Positions 476 through 31,787 of a stretch of 64,000 bases of DNA are shown here, piece by piece. Position 1 is the stretch's first letter. Each line of letters opens with the position of its first letter. Under the pieces are notes generated by a model. The model was not told where the DNA came from and did no database searches. It saw only the letters and a list, made by a program, of their open reading frames with translations. This stretch comes from Halobellus sp. LT62 (GTDB lineage Archaea; Halobacteriota; Halobacteria; Halobacteriales; Haloferacaceae): contig NZ_JAYEZO010000001.1 in the NCBI RefSeq assembly GCF_037031285.1, positions 1,054,001-1,118,000 on the forward strand. Direction: 5' to 3'. Position numbers and translations under genes: made by a program.

Positions 476-982
476 GAAAACGTCTCTGACTTACTCGGGA
501 CCCGCTCAGCCTTTCGAGAACTCATCACCGCGAGAGGAGAGTGTCGTCTTCGCACAGCACGTTCGTTCCGGGCAGAAATATCAACTGTGGACGTCCGACG
601 GAGCCGACGGAAAGCAGTGAGCAGTCGTCCTTCGACTATACCCGAAGGCCCCTAATGTAGCGGTTGCAACTGAGAATTCATCCGACCGAATGCCGCCGTC
701 CGGCCGAGTGGGTGAAGACATACAAGCGCTACAACACGATGCATTGTCGCTCCTGTTCGCGGACAGCAGCCCGCGTCCAATCGTGAAAATCTCGGCTCGA
801 ACCGATTGGGAACCGAGACGCGGCGCGTGCGCGCTCTTACGGGAGACGAGGATACCGGACAAGTCGTCCGCTGGAAACGAAAAACGGCTGTTTATGACGA
901 TCTGCAACGCCTTCGAGGTCTGCTCTCGGATACGAAGGGGACGTTTTGTCGTCCCCACATCTGACAAACGTGGAGGTCGAAA
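476..982. other. gene-free stretch
   Basis: No convincing coding sequence. The open frames here are shadows with arginine/serine-rich translations. The only structured element recognised is one copy of the dispersed palindromic repeat at 657-732. Confidence 0.6.
657..732 (+). repeat. dispersed palindromic repeat, copy A
   Basis: About 76 bp that starts GTAGCGGTTGCAACTGA and ends AAGCGCTAC, so the ends are complementary (GTAGCG/CGCTAC). Internal blocks TCATCCGA and GAGTGGGTGAAGACA are shared with copies at 9388, 15724, 17031 (reverse) and 7615 (reverse, degenerate). All copies lie between genes. It resembles a small non-autonomous element or REP-like sequence; no transposase in the window matches it. 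Confidence 0.7.
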
Positions 983-1972
983 CTACGCCTCCTCCTCCAA
1001 GGAGATTCGTGGGTCGATATACATATACAGGATATCCACGATGAAATTCGAGATAATCACCAGCGCGGCAGTGATGAAGAACAGGAACATCAACACGGGG
1101 AAGTCCCTGGCGAAGACCGCTTGGACGATCGTGTATCCGATCCCGGGCCAATTGAACACCGTTTCGATGAGGACGAGTCCACTCATCGACTGCGCGATCG
1201 AGATCGGATAGAGCGTGATGACCGGCAGGATCGAATGCCTAATGAGCCGTCGCAGTTGATCGGTCGAAGGCAGCCCACTGACTTCGTGATAGAACATAAA
1301 CTCTTGATTAGACACTTCGGTAAGGCTCGTTCTCATCGTCGTCGTCGGCAAGAAGAGATACCGGAGGACAACCGTCGCGGCTGGTAGCGTCCAGTGCCAC
1401 AGGAAGTCCTTCGTGAGATACACCTCATACCACGCCATATCGGTCGTGAGCGTCTCGACGGATGCCAGTCCACCAGTCGGGAAGATCCCCAAGATCCCCG
1501 CGAATACAATGACCATCACCATCGCGAGGAAGAAACTGGGGAACGATCCGACGAAGAGGACGCTTACCAGACCCGTCCGTTCAATCTTCGACCCCTTGTC
1601 GAAGCCCATATAGGAGCCAAAGAGGGTGCCGAGGACGTACGCCAGCGTGATCGCCGGCACCCCGAGGAGGAGCGTGTTCAGAATGCGGTCTTTCGTATAC
1701 TCCCAGACGGGTTCGCCGTTTTGCAGGGAGTTACCCATATCCAGCGTAAGGAAGTTCTTGAGGTACTGGTAGTACTGCACGTACAGCGGTTGATTGAGCC
1801 CCCACTTTCGCTCGAACGCGGCGATCGCCTCCTCGCTCGCCCCATCCGCCAGCAGCACCGAGGTGATAGACCCCGGCATCAATCGAAGTAGGAAGAAGAG
1901 GAACGTGAGCACTACAAATAGCAGAAATACAGTCTGTGCCGTCCGCTTCAGTAGGTAGGTGATGCTACTCAT
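983..1972 (-). CDS. ABC transporter permease, DppB/OppB type
   Basis: 329 residues. It is one of two membrane subunits of an importer of the dipeptide/oligopeptide/nickel class. Six hydrophobic segments are visible, beginning with an N-terminal one after SSITYLLKRTAQ. A long extracytoplasmic loop follows, and an EAA-like cytoplasmic loop around HEVSGLPSTDQLRRLIRHS contacts the ATPases. The end YMYIDPRIS is typical of DppB homologues. It is the last gene of the minus-strand operon 5040 to 983, 82 bases after the second ATPase gene. The translocated substrate cannot be read from the permease; peptides are the default for the family, but organic acids or nickel are possible. Confidence 0.9.
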   Translation of the reverse strand: MSSITYLLKRTAQTVFLLFVVLTFLFFLLRLMPGSITSVLLADGASEEAIAAFERKWGLNQPLYVQYYQYLKNFLTLDMGNSLQNGEPVWEYTKDRILNTLLLGVPAITLAYVLGTLFGSYMGFDKGSKIERTGLVSVLFVGSFPSFFLAMVMVIVFAGILGIFPTGGLASVETLTTDMAWYEVYLTKDFLWHWTLPAATVVLRYLFLPTTTMRTSLTEVSNQEFMFYHEVSGLPSTDQLRRLIRHSILPVITLYPISIAQSMSGLVLIETVFNWPGIGYTIVQAVFARDFPVLMFLFFITAALVIISNFIVDILYMYIDPRISLEEEA

Positions 1973-2054
1973 ACGAACTCACCCCCGAACGGATCACGGA
2001 ACTCACCGTCGGCGATTCCCCCACTCTCGACTGAGTCAGTGTATGCAAGCATCG

Positions 2055-3092
2055 TCATACCTCCCCCACCACTTCTTGCCCGACTTCATCCGTTTCACTC
2101 TCGTACTCCTCGTGGTCGTAGTACAGATGACACGCGGCCTCGTGACCTTCCGATTCGACGAGATGTGGCGTCTTTTCGCAGATATCCATCCGCTCCGGAC
2201 AACGGTCCCGGAATCGGCACCCTTCACCCATATCGATCGGATCTCGTGGCGATCCCTCGATCTTCGTCCGTTCGCGGTCGTGATCCAGACTGTGTGACGG
2301 AATTGCCTGAATCAGAGCCTGCGAGTACGGATGCTTCGGGCTTTCGAGAAGGTCGCGCGTCTCCGATCGTTCGACAATCCGTCCGAGGTACATCACGTTG
2401 ATGATATCACAAACGTGCGAGACTGTCGAGAGGTCGTGAGAGATATAAATAAGCGCGAGGTCACGCTTCTCCCGCAGTTCCGAGAGCAGGGTCAAGACGG
2501 ACGCTTGCGTAGACACGTCGAGCATCGAGGCGGGTTCATCGGCAAGCAGGATTTTCGGCTCGACGATCAGGGCTCTCGCGATCGCCACGCGCTGTAGCTC
2601 CCCCCCACTGAGCTGATCGGGGACTCGATCCAAGTACTGATCCGGGGGATTCAGCTCCACCTCCTTCAGCGTGTTATGTATCCGCTCTTCTTTATTCCCC
2701 ATATCGTGAATCCCCAGCTGTTCTTCCAGCGATTCCTTAATCGTCATCTTCGGATTCAGCGTATTGAACGGGTCCTGGAAGATAATCTGGACGTCACCCC
2801 GATAACTCTTCAACTCGCTTTTGTCGAACTCCGCCATATCCTTGCCCTTATATCGTATTCTCCCCGCTGTCGGGGCCTGCAATCCGATTAAGGTTTCTAA
2901 CAGCGTGGATTTTCCGCAGCCACTTTCGCCGATGATTCCGATTGATTCGTTCTCGTGGAGCGTGAATGAGACGTCGTCTACTGCTTGTATCTGTTCGCGA
3001 TCTCTCCGCAGCAGTGTATCGACGATACTGGTTGATTGGTCGAAATACCGTTTCAAGTTCTCGACTTCGAGGATGGGGCGAGCAGTCGACAT
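2055..3092 (-). CDS. ABC transporter ATPase, DppF/OppF type
   Basis: 345 residues. Nucleotide-binding subunit that powers import with its partner at 3092-4129. Walker A is GESGCGKSTLLETLIG, the signature loop QLSGGELQRVAIARAL and Walker B ILLADEPASMLDV. The C-terminal oligopeptide-transporter extension has the conserved cysteines in CRFRDRCPERMDIC. The ATG overlaps the previous stop by one base (TAATG), so translation of the two ATPases is probably coupled. The sequence is full length for the family, and nothing suggests inactivation. Confidence 0.92.
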   Translation of the reverse strand: MSTARPILEVENLKRYFDQSTSIVDTLLRRDREQIQAVDDVSFTLHENESIGIIGESGCGKSTLLETLIGLQAPTAGRIRYKGKDMAEFDKSELKSYRGDVQIIFQDPFNTLNPKMTIKESLEEQLGIHDMGNKEERIHNTLKEVELNPPDQYLDRVPDQLSGGELQRVAIARALIVEPKILLADEPASMLDVSTQASVLTLLSELREKRDLALIYISHDLSTVSHVCDIINVMYLGRIVERSETRDLLESPKHPYSQALIQAIPSHSLDHDRERTKIEGSPRDPIDMGEGCRFRDRCPERMDICEKTPHLVESEGHEAACHLYYDHEEYESETDEVGQEVVGEV

Positions 3093-4129
3093 TACAGACT
3101 ACCTCCCTGTTTCTGCTGGTCTTGCACAGCCTGCTCGCCAGCGTATTCGTCCCGGTACACCTCATCGAGTCTGAAACAGGCTGCGGTATGCAAGTCACTG
3201 TCGCCAATCTCTTCAGGGGACGGAGCAACCTCAGCGCACTCCTCCGTCGCCCACGGACATCTTTCGGCGAAGGTACAGTAGTCGACCTCGCCCATCGTTT
3301 TCGGCGGGGTGCCCTTGACCGTCCCGAGTTCCTTGTCGGGATTGTGAACGTCCGGAAACGCCTGCTTCAGTTGGATCGTGTAGGGATGACGGGGGTTGGC
3401 TAAGACATTGTTCGTGTATCCGTACTCTGCAACCTGTCCCGAGTGCATTATCGCCAATTTGTTACAGTTTTCGTAAATAATGCTCATATCGTGGGTGATC
3501 AACATCATACTCGTATCCAGATCCTCCCGCACGTTATCCAGATACTTGAACAATTGATCCTGCATAATCACGTCCAGTGCCGTGGTCGGTTCATCGGCCA
3601 CGATCAGGTCCGGATCGAGGAACAGAGCCATTGCAATCACAGCTCGCTGTTGCATCCCGCCGGAGAACTGATGGGGATAATCCGAGATTCTGGCCTTCGA
3701 TAGGCCGACGATCTCGAACATCTCGGCGAGACGCTCGCTGGCCTCGTTTGGCGACATATCCGTGTGGATACTCGCGAGCTTTTTCGCCTGTTTTTCAATC
3801 CGAAGAAGGGGATCAAGATTGTTCATCGAACTCTGAGGGATGAACGAGATCTTTTTCCACCGAATTCGTTCGTTCATCTCTTCGGTGGAGTAATCCTGGA
3901 TCTCTTCTCCGTTGACGCGAATTGTGCCGGACGTTACCTGTCCGTTGTCGTCGAGCGCACCCATAACCGCACGGGCGATCGTACTCTTTCCGCACCCTGA
4001 TTCTCCGACCAGCCCGAAATACTCACCTTCGTCAATTGTAAAGGAGGCGTCGGAGACGGCGGTCACGGAGCCTCTATCTGTACTGTACTGGATCGTGAGG
4101 TCAGACACATCGAGTACTGGATTTGACAT
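3092..4129 (-). CDS. ABC transporter ATPase, DppD/OppD type
   Basis: 345 residues. Walker A GESGCGKSTIARAVMG, signature QFSGGMQQRAVIAMAL, Walker B LIVADEPTTALDV and the C-terminal cysteine motif CTFAERCPW identify the D-type ATPase of a peptide/nickel importer. Haloarchaeal and bacterial members work as a D/F heterodimer, and the F partner follows with a one-base overlap. The start lies 5 bases after the stop of the permease gene upstream, so the genes form one operon. Confidence 0.92.
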   Translation of the reverse strand: MSNPVLDVSDLTIQYSTDRGSVTAVSDASFTIDEGEYFGLVGESGCGKSTIARAVMGALDDNGQVTSGTIRVNGEEIQDYSTEEMNERIRWKKISFIPQSSMNNLDPLLRIEKQAKKLASIHTDMSPNEASERLAEMFEIVGLSKARISDYPHQFSGGMQQRAVIAMALFLDPDLIVADEPTTALDVIMQDQLFKYLDNVREDLDTSMMLITHDMSIIYENCNKLAIMHSGQVAEYGYTNNVLANPRHPYTIQLKQAFPDVHNPDKELGTVKGTPPKTMGEVDYCTFAERCPWATEECAEVAPSPEEIGDSDLHTAACFRLDEVYRDEYAGEQAVQDQQKQGGSL

Positions 4130-4134
4130 AGTAA

Positions 4135-5040
4135 CTACCCCTGTGCGATCGCTGCTTCGCTATCTTCAGATTCCAGTTCGCGTCCGAGCAGGAACGTCGA
4201 GACGACCGTAAAGGCGATGAGGAGTCCTGGCGTCATAGACCACGCGAGCTGTCTGGCCATAAATCCGGAATCGTAGGCGTTCCGCAGCATAACCCCCCAC
4301 GAGGGCAAGAACGGGTTAGATGCGCCCAGGAATGCGAGACTCGCCTGGAGAATGATAGAAAGCCCGATCGCAATAGCGAAAAAGAGGAACGCCATCGGTG
4401 CGACGTTTGGCAGAATATGGCGAACGATGATATGCGGCGTACTCGCGCCGGTCGCTTGGGCCGTCTTGACGAACTGTCGGTTTTTGATTTGGAGGACTTG
4501 TGAGCGGAGGACACGGGCATTGCCTCGCCAGAGAATTATTCCGATAATGAGAATCGACGTGTAAAATCCAATGCCGAAGATAGCCGACATCACAAGTGCG
4601 AACGGGATGAACGGCATACTGTATGCCATATCTGTGAACCGCATCAGCAGACTGTCCACGCGGCCGCCGACGTAGCCGGCGGTAATTCCGATTGTCATAC
4701 CGATTGTAATAGCCATACCTCCGCCCAAGAGACCAGCAATAACTGTTGGTCTCGCCCCGATGATGACGCGGGATAAGACGTCGTTGCCCAGTGAAGTCGT
4801 TCCGAGAGGATGAGCCAGGGACGGCTGGGCAGTCTTGATGATGTCTCCACCCCTGATGATCGTTTCTTGGTAACCATAGGGCGCGATGTAGGGACCAACG
4901 AATCCGAGCGCGATCACCGAACAGAGGAAAATCGACGGAATGAGCGTTATTTTTTGCTCGGCCATTCTGGATAGGCCGGAAACTAAATTCCGGAGGAGGA
5001 AACTGTCCTCATAGTTGAATGGTAAGGTACGCCTAGCCAT
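4135..5040 (-). CDS. ABC transporter permease, DppC/OppC type
   Basis: 301 residues. Second membrane subunit. The N-terminal OppC_N-like segment with its first membrane helix (ITLIPSIFLCSVIALGFVG) is followed by five more helices and an EAA loop around TGASTPHIIVRHILPN. The stretch ASLAFLGASNP is typical of DppC. It is the first gene of the permease/ATPase operon. The matching binding-protein gene (5587-7428) lies upstream on the same strand, but a 383-bp inverted-repeat element separates them, which may have uncoupled the permease genes from the binding-protein promoter. Confidence 0.92.
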   Translation of the reverse strand: MARRTLPFNYEDSFLLRNLVSGLSRMAEQKITLIPSIFLCSVIALGFVGPYIAPYGYQETIIRGGDIIKTAQPSLAHPLGTTSLGNDVLSRVIIGARPTVIAGLLGGGMAITIGMTIGITAGYVGGRVDSLLMRFTDMAYSMPFIPFALVMSAIFGIGFYTSILIIGIILWRGNARVLRSQVLQIKNRQFVKTAQATGASTPHIIVRHILPNVAPMAFLFFAIAIGLSIILQASLAFLGASNPFLPSWGVMLRNAYDSGFMARQLAWSMTPGLLIAFTVVSTFLLGRELESEDSEAAIAQG

Positions 5041-5088
5041 AGTCGCTCAATGAGAACCTTCGTAAATAATCCTTTGGTCTGGCGCAAG

Positions 5089-5471
5089 GGTAGTGTTTAG
5101 TTAGGAGTGGATTCGGTGTGAACGGGGGAGACAAGCCCGTGGAAGCCCCCGCGGTCTCGACTCGATGGGCTCGCTGTCGTTCGAAAGACGCAGAGCACCC
5201 TTCGTGATGTGGCCAGAACGCGGAGCGTTCTGGCTGCCTGCCGGACGTCATCCGGCACTGACGAGAGAGCTTTGCTCTCTCGAACCACGGTCCTTGTCGC
5301 TCACTGCGTTCGCGCCTGCGGTCTCTACTCACGGGCGTGAAGCGCCCGTTCGTATCCGCGAGGCGGCAACGCGGCCTCGTGGCTTACGTCGCCCGTCTTC
5401 GTCGAGACGGCGGCCCCTTCTATTCCCGCCTCAGCAGTTTTTCGGCCGCTATCGCGTAACTAAACACAACC
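5089..5471. mobile_element. MITE-like element, 383 bp, with terminal inverted repeats and 8-bp target duplication
   Basis: The left end GGTAGTGTTTAGTTA (5089-5103) is the reverse complement of the right end (5457-5471) with one mismatch. The direct repeat GGCGCAAG flanks it at 5081-5088 and 5472-5479. The interior codes for nothing plausible but is full of short hairpins, such as CCAGAACGCGGAGCGTTCTGG around 5211-5231 and GAGAGCTTTGCTCTC around 5269. It lies between the binding-protein gene and the permease genes of the importer. An 8-bp duplication is usual for several DDE families such as IS5 and IS1595; I cannot assign the parental element. Confidence 0.8.
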
Positions 5472-5586
5472 GGCGCAAGAGTGAAGGAGGAAATATTACG
5501 TTCGATCTCCGATCGGCGCGCACGATTGCCGCGGAGGCGATGGTGAAAATCTACAAGAAGAGTCCCTGCCGGTGAGCAAAGGTAGC

Positions 5587-7428
5587 TCAGGGCTCTTGAT
5601 ACACCACTTCTCCGCCCTCCTCAGTGAGACAGGAGAACTCATCCGGCGAGGGGCGGCCGCCCAGCTCAAACACCGGACTGAGATCGGCATCCGGGGGGTA
5701 ATGCAGGTTGCCGTTGTCGTCCCATCCCCACCCGGCGTCGCTGAGAACTTGCCTTGCGCCCTCGATATCACCGGTCGGGTCTTCCGTGAACTCCGGAATC
5801 ATCTCGTCAGGCGCGAGGTAAGGGTAGGAATCAGCGTAGATCTCCGAGTGAAGGATCGGTTCAGACATCCCATCATACGCCAGCTGGTTGTGCCGCTGGC
5901 GGTTCATCGCTTTCCCGATCGCATGGCGGAACTCGGGGAACATACAGGGCCCCCTCGAACAGTTGGGGTAAATAACGACAGGCGCCCATCCATTGGTCGC
6001 GGAGAACTCTCCCCAGTCGTTCTCATTAATTCGCTCTCTCGCGTTGCTGGACGCATCTGTCGCGACATCCAAGTCCTCGGCCAAGAACGCCTGCATCGCT
6101 GCCTCCGCGCCCTCGTAGCCAACGTGGATGATTTCGTGCTCCGGAGACCACCCGTCCTCCCCGTACATCGGATGGCCTTCGTGCGGTGAGACACGCACCG
6201 CTTGGCTCGAATTGAAATTCTCTATTTGCCAGAGTCCCGACCCAATGATCTCATCCGGGTGCGCCTCCCCGGGATTTTCCATCGCACCCGCCTCTCTCCA
6301 AGAGTCGCTGTGAAGGATTCCCCAGTTGGGGAGGCGAGCCGTTTGGAGTAAGATATCGGGGTCCTCGCCCGTGAATCTCACCGTCTTATCGTCGACGACC
6401 TGTATTTCGTCGTACTGTGGCTCTCTCGCCAGTGGATACGAGCCAGGGTTCCCCAGAATGAGGTCGAAGGTGAACTTGACGTCTTCCGCCGTAATCTCGT
6501 CTCCGTTGTGGAAGGTCGCGTCTTTGAGCGTGACAGTCACCTCTCGACCTTCGTTTGCCTCTTCGACCGATTCAGCGAGAACATTCATCAGCTCGAAGTC
6601 CTCGTTGTACATCGTCAAGGGTTGGTGAATCCCGTGTGACCAGAACATAATATGTGGGGCCGCCGTGAGGGTCAGGAAGTTTCTCGAAGAGATCACCGTG
6701 GGATTGAGACTGCTGGTGAACGAGTCCCCCGAGGTGGGTTCCGACTGCCGCCACATATGCGTATTCGCGTACGTGAGACCCCACGATCCCAACCCATTGA
6801 GATTCACAGTACTGGAATTATATGTGCCGAAGTTCGGATATTTGAGTAGCGGAATCGAGAAGTACTCGTTACTTCTGATCTCCATCGCCCGATTGATCAA
6901 CTCCTGTCGTTCTTCGGACCGACCCTCAACGCTCTGTTGGTAGACCGTGTTTGTGTATTCACAGTTTGGATAGTCAGAGGGGTTGTCGGATCCGGTGTTA
7001 CCGACACGGTCTATCCCGAATCGATGTAGCATCTCATCCGGGTCGAGGCGGAACGGATTTGTACCGTGAATCATAAGTTCCATATCACTTTCACGTTCCC
7101 CTGACGCCATTTGAGAGATCTGCGTTGGGTAACTCTTTCCCTGTGCATTCAACGAAACACCGAGTTCAGACAAGGTATCGGTCGCCGTCGGGATGATTGA
7201 TTCGAAGACTCCGGTAACGCCTGGCACTCCGGTCCAGTAACCGATATTGACCTCTTCGACTGGTTCACCGAGATTTTCCGAACTCCCACCAGACCCATCT
7301 CCGCCGGACCCACCGTCACCGGATCCATTACCGCCACATCCCGCCAACCCGCCGATCGCTCCCGTGCCGCCAATTATTTTGATAAAATTCCGACGCTGCT
7401 GAGTGTATTCCTTGTTATCCCTTGGCAT
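5587..7428 (-). CDS. extracellular solute-binding protein, family 5 (DppA/OppA type), Tat lipoprotein
   Basis: 613 residues. The N-terminus has a twin-arginine motif (QQRRNFIKIIGG), a hydrophobic stretch and the lipobox GGLAGC, followed by a Gly/Ser/Asp-rich linker. The protein should therefore be folded, exported by Tat and lipid-anchored outside the cell, as usual in haloarchaea. The body has family-5 features, for instance NVLAESVEEANEGREVTVTL and the FHNGDEITAEDVKFTFD block (residues about 290-330). It delivers the ligand to the permeases at 983-5040. A TATA-like box lies 33 bases upstream of the ATG. The ligand is unknown; the neighbouring CoA-ligase/beta-oxidation genes leave open an acid or peptide nutrient. 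Confidence 0.9.
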   Translation of the reverse strand: MPRDNKEYTQQRRNFIKIIGGTGAIGGLAGCGGNGSGDGGSGGDGSGGSSENLGEPVEEVNIGYWTGVPGVTGVFESIIPTATDTLSELGVSLNAQGKSYPTQISQMASGERESDMELMIHGTNPFRLDPDEMLHRFGIDRVGNTGSDNPSDYPNCEYTNTVYQQSVEGRSEERQELINRAMEIRSNEYFSIPLLKYPNFGTYNSSTVNLNGLGSWGLTYANTHMWRQSEPTSGDSFTSSLNPTVISSRNFLTLTAAPHIMFWSHGIHQPLTMYNEDFELMNVLAESVEEANEGREVTVTLKDATFHNGDEITAEDVKFTFDLILGNPGSYPLAREPQYDEIQVVDDKTVRFTGEDPDILLQTARLPNWGILHSDSWREAGAMENPGEAHPDEIIGSGLWQIENFNSSQAVRVSPHEGHPMYGEDGWSPEHEIIHVGYEGAEAAMQAFLAEDLDVATDASSNARERINENDWGEFSATNGWAPVVIYPNCSRGPCMFPEFRHAIGKAMNRQRHNQLAYDGMSEPILHSEIYADSYPYLAPDEMIPEFTEDPTGDIEGARQVLSDAGWGWDDNGNLHYPPDADLSPVFELGGRPSPDEFSCLTEEGGEVVYQEP

Positions 7429-7455
7429 TCCGATTCTGACGTTAGAGTGCTGATA

Positions 7456-7464
7456 CTTAAATTT
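7456..7464 (-). promoter_or_regulatory. TATA-like promoter element of the binding-protein gene
   Basis: On the minus strand the sequence AAATTTAAG lies about 30 bases before the ATG at 7428, the spacing expected for a leaderless or short-leader haloarchaeal transcript. Confidence 0.45.
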
Positions 7465-7614
7465 TGTCTCTATCGGGGTTGTGTTCAGCTACGCAGTTGG
7501 CCGTTTGACCTCCGCTGAGTGGAATAACGGAGTCGCGTACCCGACCCGCGAACAGGGAGCCGAGTTGCGGGACTTTCACAGCTTCTCTTCGAGACTCGCC
7601 GCACTACGTTTTCG

Positions 7615-7677
7615 GTCGTGTTTGCACGTCATCACTCACTCGATCGGGCGACAGCGTGCGATCGATTGCACCGCTAC
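7615..7677 (-). repeat. dispersed palindromic repeat, copy E (degenerate, reversed)
   Basis: Read on the minus strand it starts GTAGCGG and keeps the blocks CGATCGCACGCTGTCG and CGATCGAGTGAGTGATGACG seen in the copy at 9388, but it is about 15 bp shorter. It lies between the binding-protein gene and the CoA-ligase gene. Assigned by eye. Confidence 0.55.
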
Positions 7678-7742
7678 TACCGCACAACAGATGCTGTGAG
7701 CCTGCGGGCCGCTTCCTAACCCACGGTGTGGCTGCCCTTCGG

Positions 7743-9299: not shown

Positions 9300-9387
9300 A
9301 CTAACGTGGTCGAGTCTCGTTGCCTACCGTATACGTATTTCGGATCTATGGCTCTTGTTCACAAGCCTCTGACTTTGCGGTGCGATA

Positions 9388-9465
9388 GTAGCGTTTGCAA
9401 CTGATGACACATCGATCGCACGACAGCGTGCGATCGAGTGAGTGGGTGAAGACTTGTAACGCTAC
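9388..9465 (+). repeat. dispersed palindromic repeat, copy B (best preserved)
   Basis: 78 bp: GTAGCGTTTGCAACTGA at the left, TTGTAACGCTAC at the right, and a perfect central stem GATCGCAC-GACA-GCGTGCGATC. It lies upstream of the enoyl-CoA hydratase gene; long reading frames that start inside it are artefacts. Confidence 0.75.
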
Positions 9466-9586
9466 CATATTGTCGATCCTGTTCGGAGGAATAATCCGCG
9501 AGAAGATGCTGATGAAGCGGCCTCGCTCCGAGCGGGACCGATCGACAACCGATAAAAAAATTTACCAGGAGGTTATTGGCCTGGAT

Positions 9587-10375
9587 ATGGATGAGTTAGA
9601 GACCGTCCTAGTTGATTTTGACGAAAATACCGGTATTGGAACGCTCACGCTGAATCGCCCCGACTCGATGAACGCGTTGAATGCTCAGTTGCGGTCGGAT
9701 ATCATCACCGGGTTGGAGCAGTTAGAATCCCACAACACCGACGGGGTTTCGCTCCGAGTGGTCGTGCTCGAAGCCGCGGGGGAGAAGGCGTTCTGCGCCG
9801 GTGCGGACGTCAACGAGTTCTCTGATGAAGCGGCTGGCGGGTCCTCCGAACGTCCGATGACGAAATTCATCCGCGACTTCCCCGCACCGGTTATTGCGAA
9901 GGTTCACGGATACTGTCTCGGCGGCGGACTGGAGACGATATTGGCTTGCGATCTCAGGTATGCCAGTACAGACAGCACGCTGGGCTTTCCCGAAGCCGAC
10001 CTCGGGATCATTCCCGGAATGGGCGGTATCCAGTACGCCTCGGCAATAGCGGGACCTGCGGTTGCCAACGAACTGGCTATGACGGCGAAACGGTTCTCCG
10101 GGGAGGAGGCGGACTCCTACGGATTAGTAAACGATACGTTCGAGAGAGAAGACCTCGACGAAGAAGTCGAAGAGCTCGCAGAAACCATCGCATCGAAGGC
10201 TCCGCTTGCCGTTCAAGAGGTGAAGAAGTCGACCCAGCTTTCGACGCAAGTCGGCGTCGAAGAAGGCGTTGCGCACGATCAGCAGGTTGGCGAGCTATTG
10301 TTAGCCACCGAGGATGCCAGCGAAGGGATGACCGCATTTGCCGAGAAACGTGATCCGGAGTTCGAGGGCAAATAG
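9587..10375 (+). CDS. enoyl-CoA hydratase/isomerase (crotonase family)
   Basis: 262 residues from the ATG at 9587. The longer frame from 9395 begins inside a repeat and has no family resemblance before MDELETVLVDFDE. The crotonase oxyanion-hole segments AFCAGADVNEFS and GYCLGGGLETILACDLRYA are present. The catalytic glutamates lie in GGGLE and FPEADLGIIPGMGG, which fits a true 2-enoyl-CoA hydratase. An AGGAGG-like sequence lies about 15 bases upstream, somewhat far for a ribosome site. It would hydrate enoyl-CoA in the beta-oxidation set formed by its neighbours. Confidence 0.9.
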   Translation: MDELETVLVDFDENTGIGTLTLNRPDSMNALNAQLRSDIITGLEQLESHNTDGVSLRVVVLEAAGEKAFCAGADVNEFSDEAAGGSSERPMTKFIRDFPAPVIAKVHGYCLGGGLETILACDLRYASTDSTLGFPEADLGIIPGMGGIQYASAIAGPAVANELAMTAKRFSGEEADSYGLVNDTFEREDLDEEVEELAETIASKAPLAVQEVKKSTQLSTQVGVEEGVAHDQQVGELLLATEDASEGMTAFAEKRDPEFEGK

Positions 10376-10483
10376 GGCGTTACATCCGCTCATACCGCTC
10401 TGACAGCTGAACTACCGTCTCGTGGCGACAGGGTCGTCGTACGTGCAGTCGGAGAAACAGTCACTGTGACGGCGCGCCCTCAG

Positions 10484-11638
10484 CTAGAGACGTTCGATGA
10501 TGGTGGCGATCCCCTGACCGTAGCCGATACACATCGTTGAAAGCGCAAAGTCGTTCCCCGTTCGTTCAAGTTCGTGTGCGAGCTTCCCGAGAAGCATCGT
10601 TCCGGTTGCTCCTGGAGGATGGCCGTGGGCGATTGCACCCCCGTTCACGTTCGTCTTTTCCCACGGAACGCCCGTTTCTTCCAACCACGCCCCTACGACA
10701 GACGCGAACGCCTCGTTGACTTCAAACAGATCGATATCTTCGAGATCGAGATCCGATTTGGCCATCACCTCTTCGGTTGCCGGAATCGGCCCCGTCAGGT
10801 TCAACAGCGGATCGGCTCCGACGACTTGCGTTTCGCGTATTTTCGCTAACGGATCCCACCCACGCTCTTCTGCGATCTCTCGGCTCGTAATGAGCGCGGC
10901 TGAAGATCCATCAACGATACCGGAGGAGTTCCCTGCGTGATGGACTCCGTTTCCTTCTTCCCGAAACGCCAGCGGCAACTCCGACAGCGTCTCCATATCA
11001 GTTCCCGGCCGGGGATTCCCGTCTCGTTCCACCGTGACCGCTTCACCGTCGACTTCGGTTTCGACGGGGACGACCTGATTATCGTAGTAGCCCGCTTCCC
11101 ACGCCTCGCTCCACCGTTTCTGGGAGTCGACTGCGATCTGGTCGACATCCTCTCGGGTCAGATCGTATTTTTCCGCGATCCGTTCTGCTCCCTCTCCCTG
11201 GTGGGTGATTTCGTCGAACTCCTCGTAGTAGGTATCGGACATATCGGACAGCTCACCGTCGGAACCCATCGGGATTCGGGTCATATGCTCGACGCCGCCA
11301 GCGACGACGACGTCCTGTCGTCCGGATTCAACATTTGCGGCGGCGAAGTTAACCGCCTGTTGCCCCGAGCCGCAGAATCGGTGCAGTTGCACGCCAGGGA
11401 TCCCATCGCCCCACCCGGCGACCATCGGGGCGAGTCGGCCAATATTCTTCGACTGTTCGTCAACGGGCGTGATACAGCCGTAGATGACGTCGTCGACGAT
11501 ATCCGGATCGAAACCGTTCCGATCCTCCAACGCTTTGAGCGGCTCGGCGGCGAGATCCTGGGGATGCGTATCGCGCAGGAGCCCTCCGTGTGCCCCGAAC
11601 GGCGTCCGGACGGCATCAACAATGACAGCGTCTCTCAT
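10484..11638 (-). CDS. acetyl-CoA C-acyltransferase (thiolase)
   Basis: 384 residues, the normal length of a catabolic or biosynthetic thiolase. The nucleophilic cysteine is C89 in HRFCGSGQQAVNFA. NVNGGAIAHGHPPGATGT carries the active-site His, and STMCIGYGQG the second catalytic cysteine. It should cleave 3-ketoacyl-CoA to acetyl-CoA plus a shorter acyl-CoA, or run in reverse. It converges on the hydratase gene, whose stop is about 110 bases away. No inactivating change is seen. Confidence 0.93.
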   Translation of the reverse strand: MRDAVIVDAVRTPFGAHGGLLRDTHPQDLAAEPLKALEDRNGFDPDIVDDVIYGCITPVDEQSKNIGRLAPMVAGWGDGIPGVQLHRFCGSGQQAVNFAAANVESGRQDVVVAGGVEHMTRIPMGSDGELSDMSDTYYEEFDEITHQGEGAERIAEKYDLTREDVDQIAVDSQKRWSEAWEAGYYDNQVVPVETEVDGEAVTVERDGNPRPGTDMETLSELPLAFREEGNGVHHAGNSSGIVDGSSAALITSREIAEERGWDPLAKIRETQVVGADPLLNLTGPIPATEEVMAKSDLDLEDIDLFEVNEAFASVVGAWLEETGVPWEKTNVNGGAIAHGHPPGATGTMLLGKLAHELERTGNDFALSTMCIGYGQGIATIIERL

Positions 11639-11813
11639 AGAAAGATATGATGATCAATATCTGTTAGGTGTTTCGGTCGCTAACGGTCATATTTCGTGGA
11701 ATGGTCGCAACTGGAACAAGCGCTACTGGGTGAAATGAAGGAGGCTCGGTCTCTTCGACGGCCTGTGCTCCGGTACTTGCGGCTACATTTCGCCTCCCGA
11801 AAGTCGAATCTGA

Positions 11814-12230
11814 CTACGGACCACGCTCATCTACCGGCGCAAAGCGGGGAATTTCGTATTCATCGCCTCCCGTGAACGTAACCGCGACCTCTTGGCCGAT
11901 AGAGATAGCACTCGGATCACAGTCGACGATATGAGTCATCATTCGGGGGCCCTCTTCCAGTTCGACGTAGGCGAGGACGTAGGGAGTTGCGTCGGCGTAC
12001 TCACCGCGCGTACGCCTGACGACAGTGTGCGTGTAGACTGTCCCGGTACCACTTGCTTGGACCCATATAACGTCGGCACCGAAACAGTGCGGACAACGGG
12101 CGCGAGGATAGTGATGGAATTCGTCACAGTCTCGACACTGGCGGATCAGGAGACGCCCGTCGGCGGTCGCCTCCCAGAACGGCTCCGTCTCGGGATGAAC
12201 CGGCGGCGTCGGATTCAGGAGGTCGCTCAT
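11814..12230 (-). CDS. Zn-ribbon / OB-fold acyl-CoA-associated protein (DUF35 family)
   Basis: 138 residues from the ATG at 12230 (MSDLLNPTPPVHPE). The longer frame upstream is unlikely, because this ATG overlaps the stop of the preceding thiolase-like gene as ATGA. A rubredoxin-like zinc site is seen in RQCRDCDEFHHYPRARCPHC, followed by an OB-fold with GTVYTHTVVRR and YVLAYVELEEGPRM. Family members bind and support thiolase-like partners, such as archaeal HMG-CoA synthase complexes and steroid side-chain aldolase/hydratase pairs. The tight coupling to the SCP2-type thiolase gene indicates the same here. Confidence 0.88.
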   Translation of the reverse strand: MSDLLNPTPPVHPETEPFWEATADGRLLIRQCRDCDEFHHYPRARCPHCFGADVIWVQASGTGTVYTHTVVRRTRGEYADATPYVLAYVELEEGPRMMTHIVDCDPSAISIGQEVAVTFTGGDEYEIPRFAPVDERGP

Positions 12231-13378
12231 ACGGTCTCTCTCCCCAGGATCGCCGTCACGCTCCCCATACGCGTTCCGATGCTTCCGCCCGTCCCGTGGA
12301 CGAGTGCCGTCTCGCAATCGGGCACTTGCAGCTCCGGCGCGGCCTCGCCGCGCAGTTGCCTGACTGCTTCGATCACTTTCGTCATCCCGCCGCGGTTCCC
12401 GGGGTGGTTGTTACAGAGGCCTCCGCCGTCAGTGTTGTACGGGAGGTCCCCATCGGGGGCTTTGAGCGTTCCTCCTTCGACGAAGGACCCTCCGTCGCCT
12501 TTCTCGCAGAATCCGAGATCTTCGAGCGTTTCGACGACCGTGATCGTGAACGAGTCGTAGATCGAAGCGTAGTCGATGTCGTCGTGATCGACGTCGGCCT
12601 CGCTGAAGGCTCTCGGACCTGAGTCGACCGCAGCCGTGTATGTCAGGTCGACAGCTCCGCCATGTGGATGTTTGACAGCCTCGCCACAGCCGAGGACCGG
12701 GATGCACTTCCGCTCAAGTTCGGCTGCCCGCTCATCGCTCACGACGAGTATCCCACCTCCGCCGTCGGACACGACACAGCAATCTAGGAGGTGAAGCGGG
12801 TCACAGACCAACGGCGACTCGACGACATCGTCGACAGTCACTGGCTCTTGAAACATCGCGTTTTCGTTGTACTGCGCGTGATGGGACGCCGCGACTCGAA
12901 CCTCCGCGAGCTGTTCGGAAGTTGTCCCGAACTCGTGCATATGTCGCCGGGCAGCGAGGGCATACGTGGCGGGAGCAGACAGCCCATACAGGTCTTCGAA
13001 TCCTGCTTCCGGTGTCTTGTTTTCGGGCGGGGAAGAGCTGTTCCGCGGTCGCCCTGCCATCGTTAACAACGCAACCTCACAGTCTCCGGCTTCGATCGCG
13101 GACGCAGCGTGCCCGAGGTGGGACACATACGACGATCCTCCGATGTCGGTGCCTTCGATATGAGAAAGGTCCTCCAGACCGAGGTAGTCGATCATCGATA
13201 AAACCGAAAACATCCCCGCTGGATCGCCTGCGGTGAAGTAGGCATCGACGTCGTCGATCGTCAACCCCGCGTCGTCGAGCGTTTCAGCAGTAATCTCTGC
13301 GTGTAATTCCGTTACGGACGTGTCCGGTGCATCTCTCGTTGGGTGTTCGTACACGCCAGCAATGGCGGCGGAACTCAT
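12227..13378 (-). CDS. SCP2/lipid-transfer-type thiolase-like protein
   Basis: 383 residues of thiolase fold. Where a thiolase has its nucleophilic cysteine this protein reads TDIGGSSYVSHLGHA, so the Cys appears to be Ser. The C-terminal part has CNNHPGNRGGMTKV and ALVHGTGGSIGTRMG. Proteins of this type, paired with DUF35, act as aldolases or acyl-CoA-binding subunits rather than classical thiolases. The partner gene follows with an ATGA overlap. Its likely role is carbon-carbon cleavage of a branched or side-chain acyl-CoA in the local pathway; this is inference. Confidence 0.85.
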   Translation of the reverse strand: MSSAAIAGVYEHPTRDAPDTSVTELHAEITAETLDDAGLTIDDVDAYFTAGDPAGMFSVLSMIDYLGLEDLSHIEGTDIGGSSYVSHLGHAASAIEAGDCEVALLTMAGRPRNSSSPPENKTPEAGFEDLYGLSAPATYALAARRHMHEFGTTSEQLAEVRVAASHHAQYNENAMFQEPVTVDDVVESPLVCDPLHLLDCCVVSDGGGGILVVSDERAAELERKCIPVLGCGEAVKHPHGGAVDLTYTAAVDSGPRAFSEADVDHDDIDYASIYDSFTITVVETLEDLGFCEKGDGGSFVEGGTLKAPDGDLPYNTDGGGLCNNHPGNRGGMTKVIEAVRQLRGEAAPELQVPDCETALVHGTGGSIGTRMGSVTAILGRETV

Positions 13379-13584
13379 TGATTCTGGATTTCCCGGGACG
13401 TGACTTATACATACGCCATCGAGAATCGGTGTTCCGTTCTGGTGGTAGAGCCAACCGGGCGAGTTCCCTGACGATGGTACCGTATTACGGCTAAGATAGC
13501 CGGTATCCCGATTTCGTACCGTTCGAAACTGTCAATAATATTTTAGCAGAAATTATAGCCCCCTGTTACAATTTACCGGACACA

Positions 13585-14328
13585 ATGTCGGATTCAATCG
13601 AATCAGTGGCAGTCGTTGGTGGCGGAATAATGGGCGGCGACATCGGACAGGTTCTGGCGCAAGCAGGATACGACGTCAACCTTCGGGACGTAGAAGAGGA
13701 CGCACTCGCGGACACGGAAGATCGAATCAAGAACGGCAACTACGGACTCGGGGCGTCGGTCGAAGGGGGGTATATCACAGCGGAGGAGCGCGATGCGACA
13801 CTCGACCGGCTCACCTTCACGCTCGACCTCGATGAGGCCTTGGACGACGTCGACGCGGTATTTGAGGCCGTTCCCGAGGATCTCGCCCTCAAAGGTGACG
13901 TTTTCCGCGAAATCGACAACCACACAGAGGGGATTCCGCTGTTCTCGAACACGAGTGGGCTGTCGGTCACGGCCCTAGCAAACGCAGTCGAGGACCGATC
14001 ACGATTCGCGGTGACGCACTTTTTCAGTCCGGTCCCGGTTATGGACTTAGTCGAGATCGTCCGCGCACCACAGACGGACGACCGGGTGATCGAAGTCGCT
14101 CAGTCTATCGCTGAGGATCTCGATAAGACGTACATCACGATCGAGGACACGACCGAGGAGTACGGGTTCGTCGCCAACCGCTGTTACTTCGCCCTGATGG
14201 AGGAGGCCGAGCGCGTGGTCGACGAAGGAATCGCGACCGAAGAACAGGTCAATACCGCGCTCAAGGAGGGGTTCAACCATCCGATCGGTCCCTTCGAGCT
14301 CATCGGAACCGGAAACGAGTGGGACTGA
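13585..14328 (+). CDS. 3-hydroxyacyl-CoA dehydrogenase, C-terminally shortened
   Basis: 247 residues. The NAD-binding segment VVGGGIMGGDIGQVLAQAGY is followed by FEAVPEDLALKGDVF, NTSGLSV and the catalytic His in VTHFFSPVPVMDLVEIV. The helical C-terminal domain starts (FVANRCYFALMEEAERVV, NHPIGPFEL) but the protein stops nine residues later. Family members of about 285 residues continue for roughly 40 more with the rest of the dimerisation domain. Only 54 bases separate this stop from the convergent acyl-CoA dehydrogenase gene, so the missing part is absent, not frameshifted nearby. Activity is uncertain. Confidence 0.85.
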   Translation: MSDSIESVAVVGGGIMGGDIGQVLAQAGYDVNLRDVEEDALADTEDRIKNGNYGLGASVEGGYITAEERDATLDRLTFTLDLDEALDDVDAVFEAVPEDLALKGDVFREIDNHTEGIPLFSNTSGLSVTALANAVEDRSRFAVTHFFSPVPVMDLVEIVRAPQTDDRVIEVAQSIAEDLDKTYITIEDTTEEYGFVANRCYFALMEEAERVVDEGIATEEQVNTALKEGFNHPIGPFELIGTGNEWD

Positions 14329-14382
14329 TCTGACCGAAACGGACGTCTAATAGCGCTGCTGTGGTCGTTTTCGGTCGGGTAC

Positions 14383-15534
14383 TCACTTCGATTGCTTGTA
14401 GATGAGATCCCGTTGAATGTCGTTGACTCCCTCGTAGATCATCGGAGCGCGAACGTCTCGGTAGACTCGGGTGATCCGGCGGTCGTTGAGAATTCCGCGC
14501 CCGCCGTGGAGTTTCACGCCGGTCTGTGCGCACTCCGCGGCGACTTCCGTGGCCTTGACTTTCGCCATCGCCGCCCACGCACTCGCGTCGTCGACGTCGG
14601 CTTCGGCCATTCGAGCGGCTCGCCAAGTCATTGCTCTGGCGCTCTCGAACTCTAATCGCATATCCGCCAAGTCGTGCTGGACCGACTGGAAATCGCTGAC
14701 CGTTTTCCCGAACTCCTCTCGGTCGTGGACGAACGCCCAAGCTTCCTCTACCGCTGCCGCTGCGAGACCGACGCCGTGTGCCGCGACACTGATACGACCC
14801 TCGTTGAAAAATTCGGTGAGCATCCGGAACCCCTCTCCCTCATCCCCGAGGAGATTCTCCGTCGGGACTCGACAGTCGTCAAAGACGATATGCGCCTGCT
14901 GGGAGGCCCGCATCGACATTTTCGCGGGAATCTCTTCGGCGTCATAGCCGTCTACGTCCGTCGGGACGATAATCAACGAATAGTTTTCGTAGGGGTTTTC
15001 GCCGTCTCCAGTCTTCGCGTACACGACGACCCAGTCGGCATCGACTCCGTTTCCGATCCAGTATTTTTCACCAGTTATTATCCACTCGTCCCCGTCTCGC
15101 TCGGCTGCCGTTTCCATCCCCGTGAGATCGCTTCCCGTTTCGGGTTCGGAAATCGCGCCGCCGCTGAACTCCTCGCCCGACGGAATCGGAGGAAGATAGC
15201 GGTCTTTCTGTTCGTCGGTCCCAAACAGTTCGATCATCGACGCACCGAATGCACGGCCGAGTAATGCCATACTTAGCCCAGCGTCCGCACGGAAAAATTC
15301 CTCGTGTACCGCGATGTCTTCGATGAGCGAGGTCCCACGTCCACCATATTCCTCACTGATTCCTTTCCCGACGAAGCCTGCTTCGACAGCGGGATCGACC
15401 AGTTCGTGGGGATATTTTCCACTGTTGAAATACTCTGCTGCGTTGGGTGCAATATATTCTTGAGCAAACTCACGGGCCTCACGTTTGATCTGTTTGGCCT
15501 CTTCCGGGAGGCCAACATCGGTGAGCAATTCCAT
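14383..15534 (-). CDS. acyl-CoA dehydrogenase
   Basis: 383 residues. The FAD/substrate segment GGAISEPETGSDLTGM and the stretch EWIITGEKYWIGNG are typical. The C-terminal domain has CAQTGVKLHGGRGI, and the catalytic base is the Glu of IYEGVNDIQRDLIY. It introduces the 2,3-double bond in acyl-CoA, the first oxidative step of the pathway whose later steps are encoded at 9587-13378. Electron transfer flavoprotein genes are not in the window. Confidence 0.93.
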   Translation of the reverse strand: MELLTDVGLPEEAKQIKREAREFAQEYIAPNAAEYFNSGKYPHELVDPAVEAGFVGKGISEEYGGRGTSLIEDIAVHEEFFRADAGLSMALLGRAFGASMIELFGTDEQKDRYLPPIPSGEEFSGGAISEPETGSDLTGMETAAERDGDEWIITGEKYWIGNGVDADWVVVYAKTGDGENPYENYSLIIVPTDVDGYDAEEIPAKMSMRASQQAHIVFDDCRVPTENLLGDEGEGFRMLTEFFNEGRISVAAHGVGLAAAAVEEAWAFVHDREEFGKTVSDFQSVQHDLADMRLEFESARAMTWRAARMAEADVDDASAWAAMAKVKATEVAAECAQTGVKLHGGRGILNDRRITRVYRDVRAPMIYEGVNDIQRDLIYKQSK

Positions 15535-15723
15535 ACCGCGTTGGTTCAGTGATCCGACGTAAAATAGTTGTTATGGTAGTCAATTACTCACACGATATGT
15601 GTCTCGGAGTGCGATCTCGTGGGGGTCCGGATGCCAGTATGCCCTGCAATCGCGATAATCGACACCCTCGATACGTCTGGTCACCGTCGAGGAGTGAGTA
15701 ATTGGAAGCAGTGAGCCAAGTTA

Positions 15724-15799
15724 GTGGCGTTTGCAACTGACTGCTCATCCGATCGCACGAAAGCGTGCGATCGAGTGAATGAAGACTGGCGTACGCTAC
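15724..15799 (+). repeat. dispersed palindromic repeat, copy C
   Basis: 76 bp: GTGGCGTTTGCAACTGA at the left, GCGTACGCTAC at the right, and central stem GATCGCAC-GAAA-GCGTGCGATC. It lies in the 379-base gap between the divergent acyl-CoA dehydrogenase and SDR genes, which otherwise shows no gene. Confidence 0.72.
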
Positions 15800-15897
15800 G
15801 ATAACAAAGGCTACGACAACTCTGTGAGGCTCGAGATGGTACGATAGCGGCTGTCTCACTCACAACCTTACCGAAACACGACCGGTCCCATGCCCCG

Positions 15898-15906
15898 TAA
15901 TTTTAA
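15898..15906 (+). promoter_or_regulatory. TATA-like promoter element of the SDR gene
   Basis: TAATTTTAA centred about 30 bases before the ATG at 15932. It supports that ATG over the in-frame GTG at 15914, which would lie too close to the box. Confidence 0.5.
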
Positions 15907-15931
15907 GCCGTGAGTGATAGACCTATCCGAT

Positions 15932-16699
15932 ATGATCACGATCGATATGGACGGAGAGACGGCAATCGTCACTGGCGCGGCACAGGGAATCGGCCGCGGG
16001 ATCGCGTCGCGATTGGGAGAGGCCGGCGCGAACGTGGTGCTTGCGGACATCCAGAGGGACGAAGTCACCGAAACCGCCGATGAGCTCGCAGCCGACGGCG
16101 CTACCACCGAGGCGGTGGCCTGTGACGTCACAGACCCCGACGACGTGGAGGCGATGGTCGAGGCGGCTGAGGAGTCCTTCGGCTCGGTCGAGATCCTCGT
16201 CAATAACGCCGGCGGTGCGGGTGGTCAGGCGATACAGGAACTCGAGCACGATGCCTGGGAGGACGCACTCGAACTGAACCTCACGGGGACGTACAACTGT
16301 ACGCGTGCGGTGATACCGGGGATGCTGGAGCGCGGCGAGGGCCGGATCGTCAACATCTCCTCGATGGCCGGTCGGAACGTCAGCGTCAACGGCGGGATCC
16401 ACTACACTGCTGCCAAGTGGGGAGTCATCGGCTTCACCAAGCACGCCGCACGCGACCTCGCTCCGGATGTGCGGGTCAACGCCGTCTGTCCCGGCGGCAC
16501 CCTCACGCCGATGCTAGAGGAGAACATCACCGAGGAGTGGCACGAGGAGTACGCCTCACGCGTACCGCTCGGGCGACTGGGGCGGGTGGAAGACCAAGCC
16601 AACAGCGTCCTCTTTCTCGCCTCTGAGCTGTCCGCCTATATGACTGGAACAGTACTCGAAGTCGACGGCGGCGGACAACTCAGCGAAGGCCGGAACTGA
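15932..16699 (+). CDS. short-chain dehydrogenase/reductase (FabG-like)
   Basis: 255 residues from the ATG at 15932. Classical SDR landmarks in order: cofactor motif TGAAQGIGRGIA, the Asp of DIQRDE suggesting NAD(H) preference, NNAGG, the catalytic Ser in NISSMAGR, and YTAAK with the catalytic Tyr and Lys. The C-terminus LASELSAYMTGTVLEVDGG is typical of 3-oxoacyl-reductase or 3-hydroxyacyl-CoA dehydrogenase type SDRs. In this cluster it could supply the 3-hydroxyacyl-CoA oxidation step, which matters because the classical dehydrogenase at 13585 is shortened. Confidence 0.9.
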   Translation: MITIDMDGETAIVTGAAQGIGRGIASRLGEAGANVVLADIQRDEVTETADELAADGATTEAVACDVTDPDDVEAMVEAAEESFGSVEILVNNAGGAGGQAIQELEHDAWEDALELNLTGTYNCTRAVIPGMLERGEGRIVNISSMAGRNVSVNGGIHYTAAKWGVIGFTKHAARDLAPDVRVNAVCPGGTLTPMLEENITEEWHEEYASRVPLGRLGRVEDQANSVLFLASELSAYMTGTVLEVDGGGQLSEGRN

Positions 16700-16814
16700 G
16701 CGAGCACTCGGGCAGGTCGTTCTCTGGCCGGTCGCCACATCCGGAGAGGGAGTTTGTATTTGCTGCAATTGGCGGTTCCGAAACATTCAATCGAAATTAA
16801 CAACAGTAGGTACT

Positions 16815-17021
16815 ATGGACGAAAGCAGTTCGCGATACGTCTGCTCTGCTTGCGGCTACTCGCGGGAATCGGTCGAAGCAGTCGTGAAACATATCGATAG
16901 ATCCCACAAAGACGAGTCGGCGGCTGTGTTGGAGTACGAATCTACTGAGAGCGATGGGTCGCCAACGTGGATCGGGAAGATCGTAAGATGGGTCGAGGAC
17001 GTGGTGGGAATCCGGATCTAA
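16815..17021 (+). CDS. small C2H2 zinc-finger protein
   Basis: 68 residues. One zinc-finger-like unit is seen: CSACGYSRESVEAVVKH followed by H five residues on, giving C-x2-C-x12-H-x4-H. The remainder is acidic and ends with an amphipathic stretch (TWIGKIVRWVEDVVGIRI). Such single-finger proteins are common in haloarchaea and are thought to bind DNA or proteins. No partner is obvious; a repeat copy follows directly. Confidence 0.7.
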   Translation: MDESSSRYVCSACGYSRESVEAVVKHIDRSHKDESAAVLEYESTESDGSPTWIGKIVRWVEDVVGIRI

Positions 17022-17030
17022 CCGATTATA

Positions 17031-17104
17031 GTGCGTTGCAAGTCTTCTTCTATGTGACCGCAGTCAGTGGCGCGGTCGGATGAGCAATCAGTGACAAGCG
17101 CTAC
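17031..17104 (-). repeat. dispersed palindromic repeat, copy D (reversed)
   Basis: Read on the minus strand: GTAGCGCTTGTCACTGA, then TCATCCGACC and AAGACTTGCAACGCAC at the far end. It matches copy A in the TCATCCGACC block and the GTAGCG end, in opposite orientation. It lies between the zinc-finger gene and the formylglycine-generating enzyme gene. Confidence 0.65.
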
Positions 17105-17155
17105 GATAGCTGGCGAGCACAACAATTAATCCCAACCTCCACGCTTGAAACGGGT

Positions 17156-29170: not shown

Positions 29171-29201
29171 TGGGGATCAAAGCACTCTACCTGTTGTTTT
29201 T

Positions 29202-29550
29202 CACTTCGATGGAGGGGTGTATCTCTATTCGGAGCGAACACATCGATAACGGTGTGTTCCGTTGGAGTAGCGGTTCAAACACATCGATAGAGGTGTGAAA
29301 TCCGCATGTATCCACAGAGTATCTGTCGAAACAATTTGGGTATGGCACTACGCTCTTAAGAACAAAAACAAAGGTGGGGTATTCAACTCTCCAAGCCGTT
29401 TTAGCGCCTCTACTAGCGGAATACACTTCGATAGAGGTGTGTGGTGTAAGCTGGCGTGCACCCATCCTTTGAATCACAAGTCAGGGAGTAGAGCGCCCCT
29501 ATCGGAGTGTATGTGGATCTCTCTCGAATACACATCGATAGAGGGGAGGG
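29202..29550 (+). repeat. ORB-like origin repeats, downstream cluster (5 copies)
   Basis: Five copies of a sequence near ACACATCGATAGAGGTGTG, all in the same orientation, at about 29202-29220, 29236-29259, 29276-29297, 29422-29442 and 29528-29550. These are typical Orc1/Cdc6 recognition boxes. They lie between the unknown gene and the 3' end of orc1. Confidence 0.85.
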
Positions 29551-29585
29551 AACAGTGAGTCCACCAGCAAAGAATGTAGGACTGG

Positions 29586-31046: not shown

Positions 31047-31083
31047 AGTGACGACCATACAACTAGGGGACAAAAAGGTTTCC

Positions 31084-31732
31084 CCACCCCTATCGAAGTG
31101 TGTCTTATTGTTAGAGGTGTTCAAGTTTTGTTTTTCAGCAGTAGCAGGATATATTGAGCTCGATTTTCTGAAACGGGCAACGAAGTGTTCATCAGAGAGC
31201 GGGTGTGGCAAGAGACACACCCCTCTATCGATGTGTTCGCCGGATACTCGTGGGGGGTTGCTCTCGGACTGTAGCAGGTACTTGATCGAGGTAAGATACA
31301 CGCATCTTAGCCGATAACACAATAGTTGAGAGTATACGTAGTACAGCTAGTCTATAGTTTAATTCGGGATCTTTCCTTCTTCTTCTTCTTTCTTTATATA
31401 CACGAACACACACACACACACCTCTATCGATGTGTTCGATGTGTTCATTCGATTTCCGTTATGCCTCAACAGCGGGCCATACTCTTCGATGTGTAATCGG
31501 TCCCTCTCACGCCAAAATCACTATTTCGTACCGTTTTTCGCGAATCGTTCCTGATCCCTCCGTTTGAGTCCCCCCTTACGTGTTTTTTCACGAGGTCCCC
31601 GTTTCTTCTGAACACATCGATAGAGGGGTGTCTGTTCGTTCAAGATACCTGACGTCCCCTTTGTACTCGATGCACTTCGTGCCTAAATGGGTTGGACTAC
31701 ACAAAGCTGAACACATCGATAGAGGTGTGTCT
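31084..31732. repeat. replication origin: upstream ORB-like cluster (5 copies) with AT-rich segment
   Basis: Copies at about 31084-31103, 31213-31239 and 31417-31437 read in reverse; copies at 31610-31633 and 31709-31732 read forward (GAACACATCGATAGAGGGGTGTCT type, 24 bases with flanks). Between the second and third copy lies an AT-rich and then pyrimidine-rich stretch (31330-31400), a candidate unwinding region. No gene lies in 31047-31859. With orc1 adjacent this is almost certainly an origin. Confidence 0.82.
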
Positions 31733-31787
31733 CTGTCCCCGGTCGGGGACTACTGTACTTCGGTTTCGGTGATTCGCTCTTCTGGAC

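Follow-up and report, generated by a model that had tools for sequence, protein, structure and literature searches.

The window, by which the whole analysed stretch of 64,000 nucleotides of Halobellus sp. LT62 is meant, carries five palindromic repeats in its first 17 kb. They lie in catabolic surroundings, as the first-pass annotation had described, the genes near them encoding beta-oxidation enzymes and parts of ABC transporters. All five palindromes reported there are present, each within a few bases of its original placement, and the alignment revealed that they are true homologues belonging to one family. The copies are listed below with their scores in a whole-genome search with a covariance model trained on 22 copies.

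Copy A, 651-738, forward strand: diverged full-length element (82.2 bits, E = 1.9e-21; in the training set)
Copy B, 7609-7683, reverse strand: degenerate element with a left-arm deletion (38.1 bits, E = 1.2e-7; not in the training set)
Copy C, 9382-9471, forward strand: element with 4 bases inserted into its right inner arm (81.1 bits, E = 4.5e-21; in the training set)
Copy D, 15718-15805, forward strand: less diverged than the other four (95.0 bits, E = 2.1e-25; in the training set)
Copy E, 17025-17110, reverse strand: diverged element whose inner stem is broken (65.3 bits, E = 3.8e-16; in the training set)

Copy B, which lies outside the training set, is still significant at E = 1.2e-7. A three-part right-arm pattern matched copies A, C and D in the window and gave 0 matches in 100 dinucleotide shuffles, and TTGCAACTGA taken alone was not significant. 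The remaining 47 kb were correctly described as free of the repeat, only these five of the genome-wide model matches falling within the window. The repeats had been given as about 75 bp long; they are real, but measure about 84-88 bp in full, as the limits GTAGCG/CGCTAC leave out the outer TATA/TATA.

Another dispersed repeat of the window, at 5089-5471, is about 383 bp long and has inverted ends of 15 bases (GGTAGTGTTTAGTTA / TAACTAAACACAACC). Pieces of it occur at 72-93% identity in the source genome and in other Halobellus genomes and barely on public plasmids, and it is probably another non-autonomous element. Further along, an Orc1/Cdc6 gene (29586-31046, reverse strand; Pfam Cdc6_lid and Cdc6_C) is flanked on both sides, within the region 29190-31740, by repeats like AACACATCGATAGAGGTGTGT in opposite orientations. 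Judging from this arrangement, the region is likely to be a replication origin with ORB-type sites.

The source genome (3,229,908 bases in three contigs) holds about 71 distinct copies of the family at E <= 0.01 in the covariance-model search, the palindromic form of the element causing most places to be matched on both strands. This search had been proposed in the first-pass annotation and did return further copies; the supposed confinement to the catabolic region does not hold across the 3.23 Mb genome, the apparent restriction having arisen because only one window was viewed. The pattern TTGCAACTGA-N-TGAAGAC matched 21 times in the source genome, compared with 0 matches for the reversed control. 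The copies are mildly clustered, with 13 neighbour gaps shorter than 3 kb where 4.4 would be expected (p = 0.0004); the occurrence of at least five copies within 16.5 kb somewhere in the genome has a p of about 0.03. The first 17 kb of the window is not conserved as a block among congeners.

The consensus is an 80-bp core, TAGTAGCGTTTGCAA...TTGCAAACGCTACTA, with TA on either side. Over 88 columns it forms a symmetric palindrome in which column i stands opposite column 89-i, and the unit can be written as TA, TAGTAGCGTTTGCAA, CTGATTN, inner stem, 4-nt loop, inner stem, TGAAGAC, TTGCAAACGCTACTA and TA. The terminal inverted repeats (TIRs) measure 14-18 bp; the outer stem reaches up to 18 pairs, with 91% of the outer-helix cells paired, and the inner stem has 15 pairs with one mismatch and is closed by a loop of four bases. 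Between the stems lies a 7-column internal block, CTGATTN / TGAAGAC, which is mostly unpaired, its CTGA and AAGAC parts being strongly conserved; in young copies this block is slightly the best conserved part, with 94-95% identity compared with 91% for the stems. A K-turn or C/D-box reading of CTGA/TGAAGAC was rejected by eye, as the register does not fit. Most young copies possess the TA ends (left T in 34 and A in 40 of 42; right T in 37 and A in 34 of 42), and the flanks beyond TA..TA are near random. The central loop (columns 43-46) occurs in both orientations in each of three versions, CAGT/ACTG, CTGT/ACAG and CCGT/ACGG, suggesting that the centre of the palindrome may have been inverted repeatedly. 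On the tree of copies the loop orientation needs 12 changes against 12.4 in shuffles, and two of three control traits were likewise without signal, so that the comparison is uninformative.

A GC-rich subfamily with arms CTCGCCGCGTTTGCAA is represented by four genome copies at loci L101, L102, L104 and L106 (about 1455-1710 in each). Around the 88-bp core its flanks are homologous as well, up to about 240 bp, and make up a longer composite form.

All five loci of genome G000 that were compared have collinear flanking genes in congeners, and the element is absent in all congeners examined, the comparison being between species, not strains: L042 is empty in G003, G002 and G007; L079 in G002; L031 in G002, G003, G007, G011 and G006; L026 in G002, G003 and G009; and L048 in G002 and G003. 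Empty sites in relatives, which the first-pass annotation had suggested looking for, thus exist at every locus tested. The corresponding gaps are too short for the element or are filled by unrelated sequence. The clearest junction among these orthologous loci was found with G003, where the empty site reads GAACTAT-TG and the filled one GAACTAT[CGTCGCG...]CATTG.

On a plasmid of Halobellus sp. DFY28 the element splits an aglF-like gene and lies between fragments annotated as NDP-sugar synthase and sugar phosphate nucleotidyltransferase. Removal of 82 bp, that is, the core and one TA, restores a continuous frame (...DHVFEQL/VGLGISEF..., the slash marking the junction), which aligns through the junction with homologues from Halorussus and H. 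limi. The target sequence is C-TA-G, and with the element in place it becomes C-TA-[80 bp]-TA-G. Another two copies on the same plasmid lie head-to-tail with a single TA common to both. The split gene and the tandem pair fit insertion at TA with duplication of 2 bp, in line with the TA ends of most copies; an 82-bp insertion with TA duplication is indicated by this reconstruction, its base-level definition coming from one split gene and one tandem pair, since divergence at the remaining empty sites is too great for both borders to be fixed. A general scan for target-site duplications longer than 2 bp gave no convincing signal. The same plasmid (NZ_CP134947.1, 1-50000 and 165000-248206; L286, L250, L289) carries a large internal duplication with many genes in common, some identical and some diverged, and one copy of the element is common to both parts with identical flanks; no paralogous empty site was found in the duplicated stretch.

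In the source genome, 70 of the 71 copies are intergenic according to a simple codon-usage gene finder, one of them at a contig edge. Between two genes, the contexts are tandem in 39 cases, divergent in 15 and convergent in 15, with no gene-orientation bias, and in the tandem gaps the two strands of the element occur 18:21. The public annotation of the DFY28 plasmid is concordant, almost every copy being intergenic and one splitting a gene. A terminator, promoter or mRNA-end function would be expected to bias placement, and no such bias was found. At locus L026 (1501-1600) the insertion lies directly upstream of a TATA-like box, TTTATATA, which is conserved in G002, and the element takes the place of upstream promoter sequence present in G002.

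The first-pass annotation had noted that the stems differ in sequence while keeping their pairing, and had taken this as a hint of selection on RNA or DNA structure. The covariance model, whose automatic secondary structure was poor, served only for finding copies; the pairing counts were made on a separate alignment without gaps. Of the cells in 50 ungapped copies, 92.3% are paired, and two-sided changes occur at ten pairs; paired changes exceed shuffles (27 cells vs 12.4), but one-arm changes are more numerous than two-arm changes, and Watson-Crick pairing drops steadily with divergence (89, 84, 75 and 58%). G-T mismatches show no significant excess over A-C mismatches, either in young copies (42:32, p = 0.30) or overall (99:80, p = 0.18). 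A DNA palindrome that mutates once it has been inserted shows just this pattern of pairing. The double changes are concentrated at a few positions (6-83, 12-77, 9-80 and 36-53); in a palindrome, inheritance within subfamilies and arm-to-arm copying should produce symmetric changes as well, and the double changes would fit either of these two, which the data do not separate.

A structured RNA, such as a 3'-end stabiliser, terminator, regulatory hairpin or sRNA, kept by selection on its fold, could be proposed from the long hairpins, the 92% of paired cells in young copies, the ten pairs changed on both sides and the conserved, non-complementary internal block CTGA/GAAGAC. However, the window gave 0 Rfam matches at the gathering threshold; the copies favour neither gene 3' ends nor convergent gaps nor one of the strands; and the element is missing at orthologous loci in all congeners examined. 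Falling pairing and the absence of a significant G-T excess leave an RNA function without support, and this explanation is extremely improbable. A role of the DNA hairpin during transposition is possible.

The family is widely but patchily distributed. Twelve of the 16 congeners have from 10 to at least 73 copies each, and copies are absent from about four, three of which are 89-99% complete. The strict matches in the named genome collection all belong to Halobellus (H. inordinatus, H. clavatus, H. salinus, H. rufus, H. rarus and sp. Atlit-31R), and on the tree the copies group by genome (10 changes vs 15.3 shuffled). Other genera are mostly without copies, the exceptions being G017 and G021 of the same family and G041, G057 and G054 of two other families of the order. 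In the related elements of other genera the ends TATAGT...GCTACTATA are kept and the TGACTTGCA or AGACTTGCA side is mostly kept, while the cores differ; the G017 version is 113 bp long. Copies were found on plasmids of Halobellus limi, Halobellus DFY28, Haloferax mediterranei (28 places on one replicon), Halorubrum, Haloplanus, Halostella and Natronorubrum, those on plasmids of other haloarchaeal genera being more diverged. Phage records yielded no family match, and viral contigs only two chance 18-mers in AT-rich contigs. The literature search returned no paper describing the family, and a search with the end sequences led to unrelated papers.

The position between genes and the slightly higher conservation of the internal block in young copies could also mean that transposition has spread DNA sites which the host has since come to use in part, as targets of a nucleoid, condensin or replication protein. 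The family is nevertheless missing from the three largely complete congeners, has no common positions at the tested loci, decays in old copies and is clustered instead of regularly spaced, which makes such domestication very improbable.

The family, which occurs in Halobellus and in other haloarchaea, mainly Haloferacaceae, is highly likely to be a palindromic, non-autonomous miniature transposable element of the MITE/SMR type. The other suggestion of the first-pass annotation, repeated transposition of different subfamilies, is supported by the 71 dispersed copies, their patchy occurrence among congeners and the subfamilies with different arms, as well as by the empty orthologous sites and the split gene with its TA duplication. 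The element is too short for a gene and has no coding capacity, and it must therefore rely for its movement on a protein supplied in trans. Such an enzyme would recognise the TAGTAGC... ends, cut, and insert a copy at TA; copies within genes would be purged by selection and the remaining ones would drift. Selection on a transcript would not be the source of the paired changes, which would come from subfamily ends and arm-to-arm copying of the palindrome.

A transposase with matching ends, which the first-pass annotation had suggested looking for, was not found. About 1 Mb of loci contained no inverted TIR pairs at transposon distance apart from neighbouring small copies, and pattern scans for a long element with the family ends revealed none among the matches listed. 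IS630-type transposases are the usual kind that duplicates TA, and some IS5-type elements duplicate 2-4 bp at TA. The copy-rich genomes G000, G004 and G015 have no IS630-type (DDE_3) transposases; the copy-free G010 and G012 do have them, and no TAGTAGC ends were found near these transposases; IS630 was rejected as a partner on the basis of this distribution and these ends.

It could be asked whether the element is REP-like or derived from IS200/IS605 and moves as single-stranded hairpin DNA, as an analogue of PATE or REP/RAYT and not as a classical DDE-type MITE. This would change the enzyme only and would leave the family a mobile repeat. The palindrome spanning the whole element, the conserved mismatches and the two loop orientations, which hairpin intermediates could give, agree with such a route, but long TIRs reaching the ends and TA duplication are reportedly missing in IS605-type elements and PATEs (PMC3119063), and the route is unlikely. 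There is also a small chance that this group of elements exists across haloarchaeal genera and families without any autonomous parent. The hairpin, whose asymmetric CTGA/GAAGAC internal loop is conserved, would then be read by an unrecognised or host enzyme, and central-loop inversion would be a by-product.

Miniature inverted-repeat transposable elements (MITEs) include TA-targeting palindromic bacterial ones such as ERIC, Correia/NEMIS and RUP, and bacterial REP/BIME sequences are dispersed intergenic palindromes with GTAG near the end. The family is MITE-like by structure: it is short, non-coding, dispersed and multicopy, with TIRs, target duplication and empty sites. It shares with MITEs the small palindrome, the TIRs, the TA duplication, intergenic accumulation, subfamilies and mobilisation in trans; however, MITEs are defined by a parent insertion sequence, and no such link was found in the sequence searched. 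REP/BIME resemble the family in being intergenic palindromes with a near-end GTAG, but the family is about two to three times longer, has TIRs to its ends and duplicates TA.

Among described classes, the small mobile repeats (SMR-A/SMR-B) of Haloquadratum walsbyi come nearest; Dyall-Smith et al. 2011 (PMC3119063) called their mobilisation enigmatic. Like the family, SMRs are haloarchaeal, geneless, 80-110 bp long and present in tens of copies per genome, with prominent TIRs; those of SMRs match no known transposon (PMC3119063), and for those of the family no partner was found in the sequence searched. By description, and not by comparison with the HqIRS40-43/55 sequences, SMRs reportedly lack target duplication and hit other mobile elements, whereas in the family TA duplication is indicated and most copies occupy ordinary intergenic gaps (PMC3119063). 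Haloarchaeal PATEs are likewise palindromic, transposase-free and multicopy but have neither TIRs nor target duplications, and TIRs are the most obvious feature of the family (PMC3119063). As a parent transposon defines a MITE and none was identified, the family was filed under the broader kind, as a transposase-free miniature inverted-repeat element, and not as an SMR or PATE.

The family is real, widespread and mobile, and ordinary in kind. It gives Halobellus and its neighbours a countable mobile repeat with defined ends, target and presence/absence sites, and it warns that paired changes in such palindromes do not necessarily mean RNA. It is also a starting point for finding what moves the transposase-free repeats of haloarchaea, the question called enigmatic in PMC3119063.
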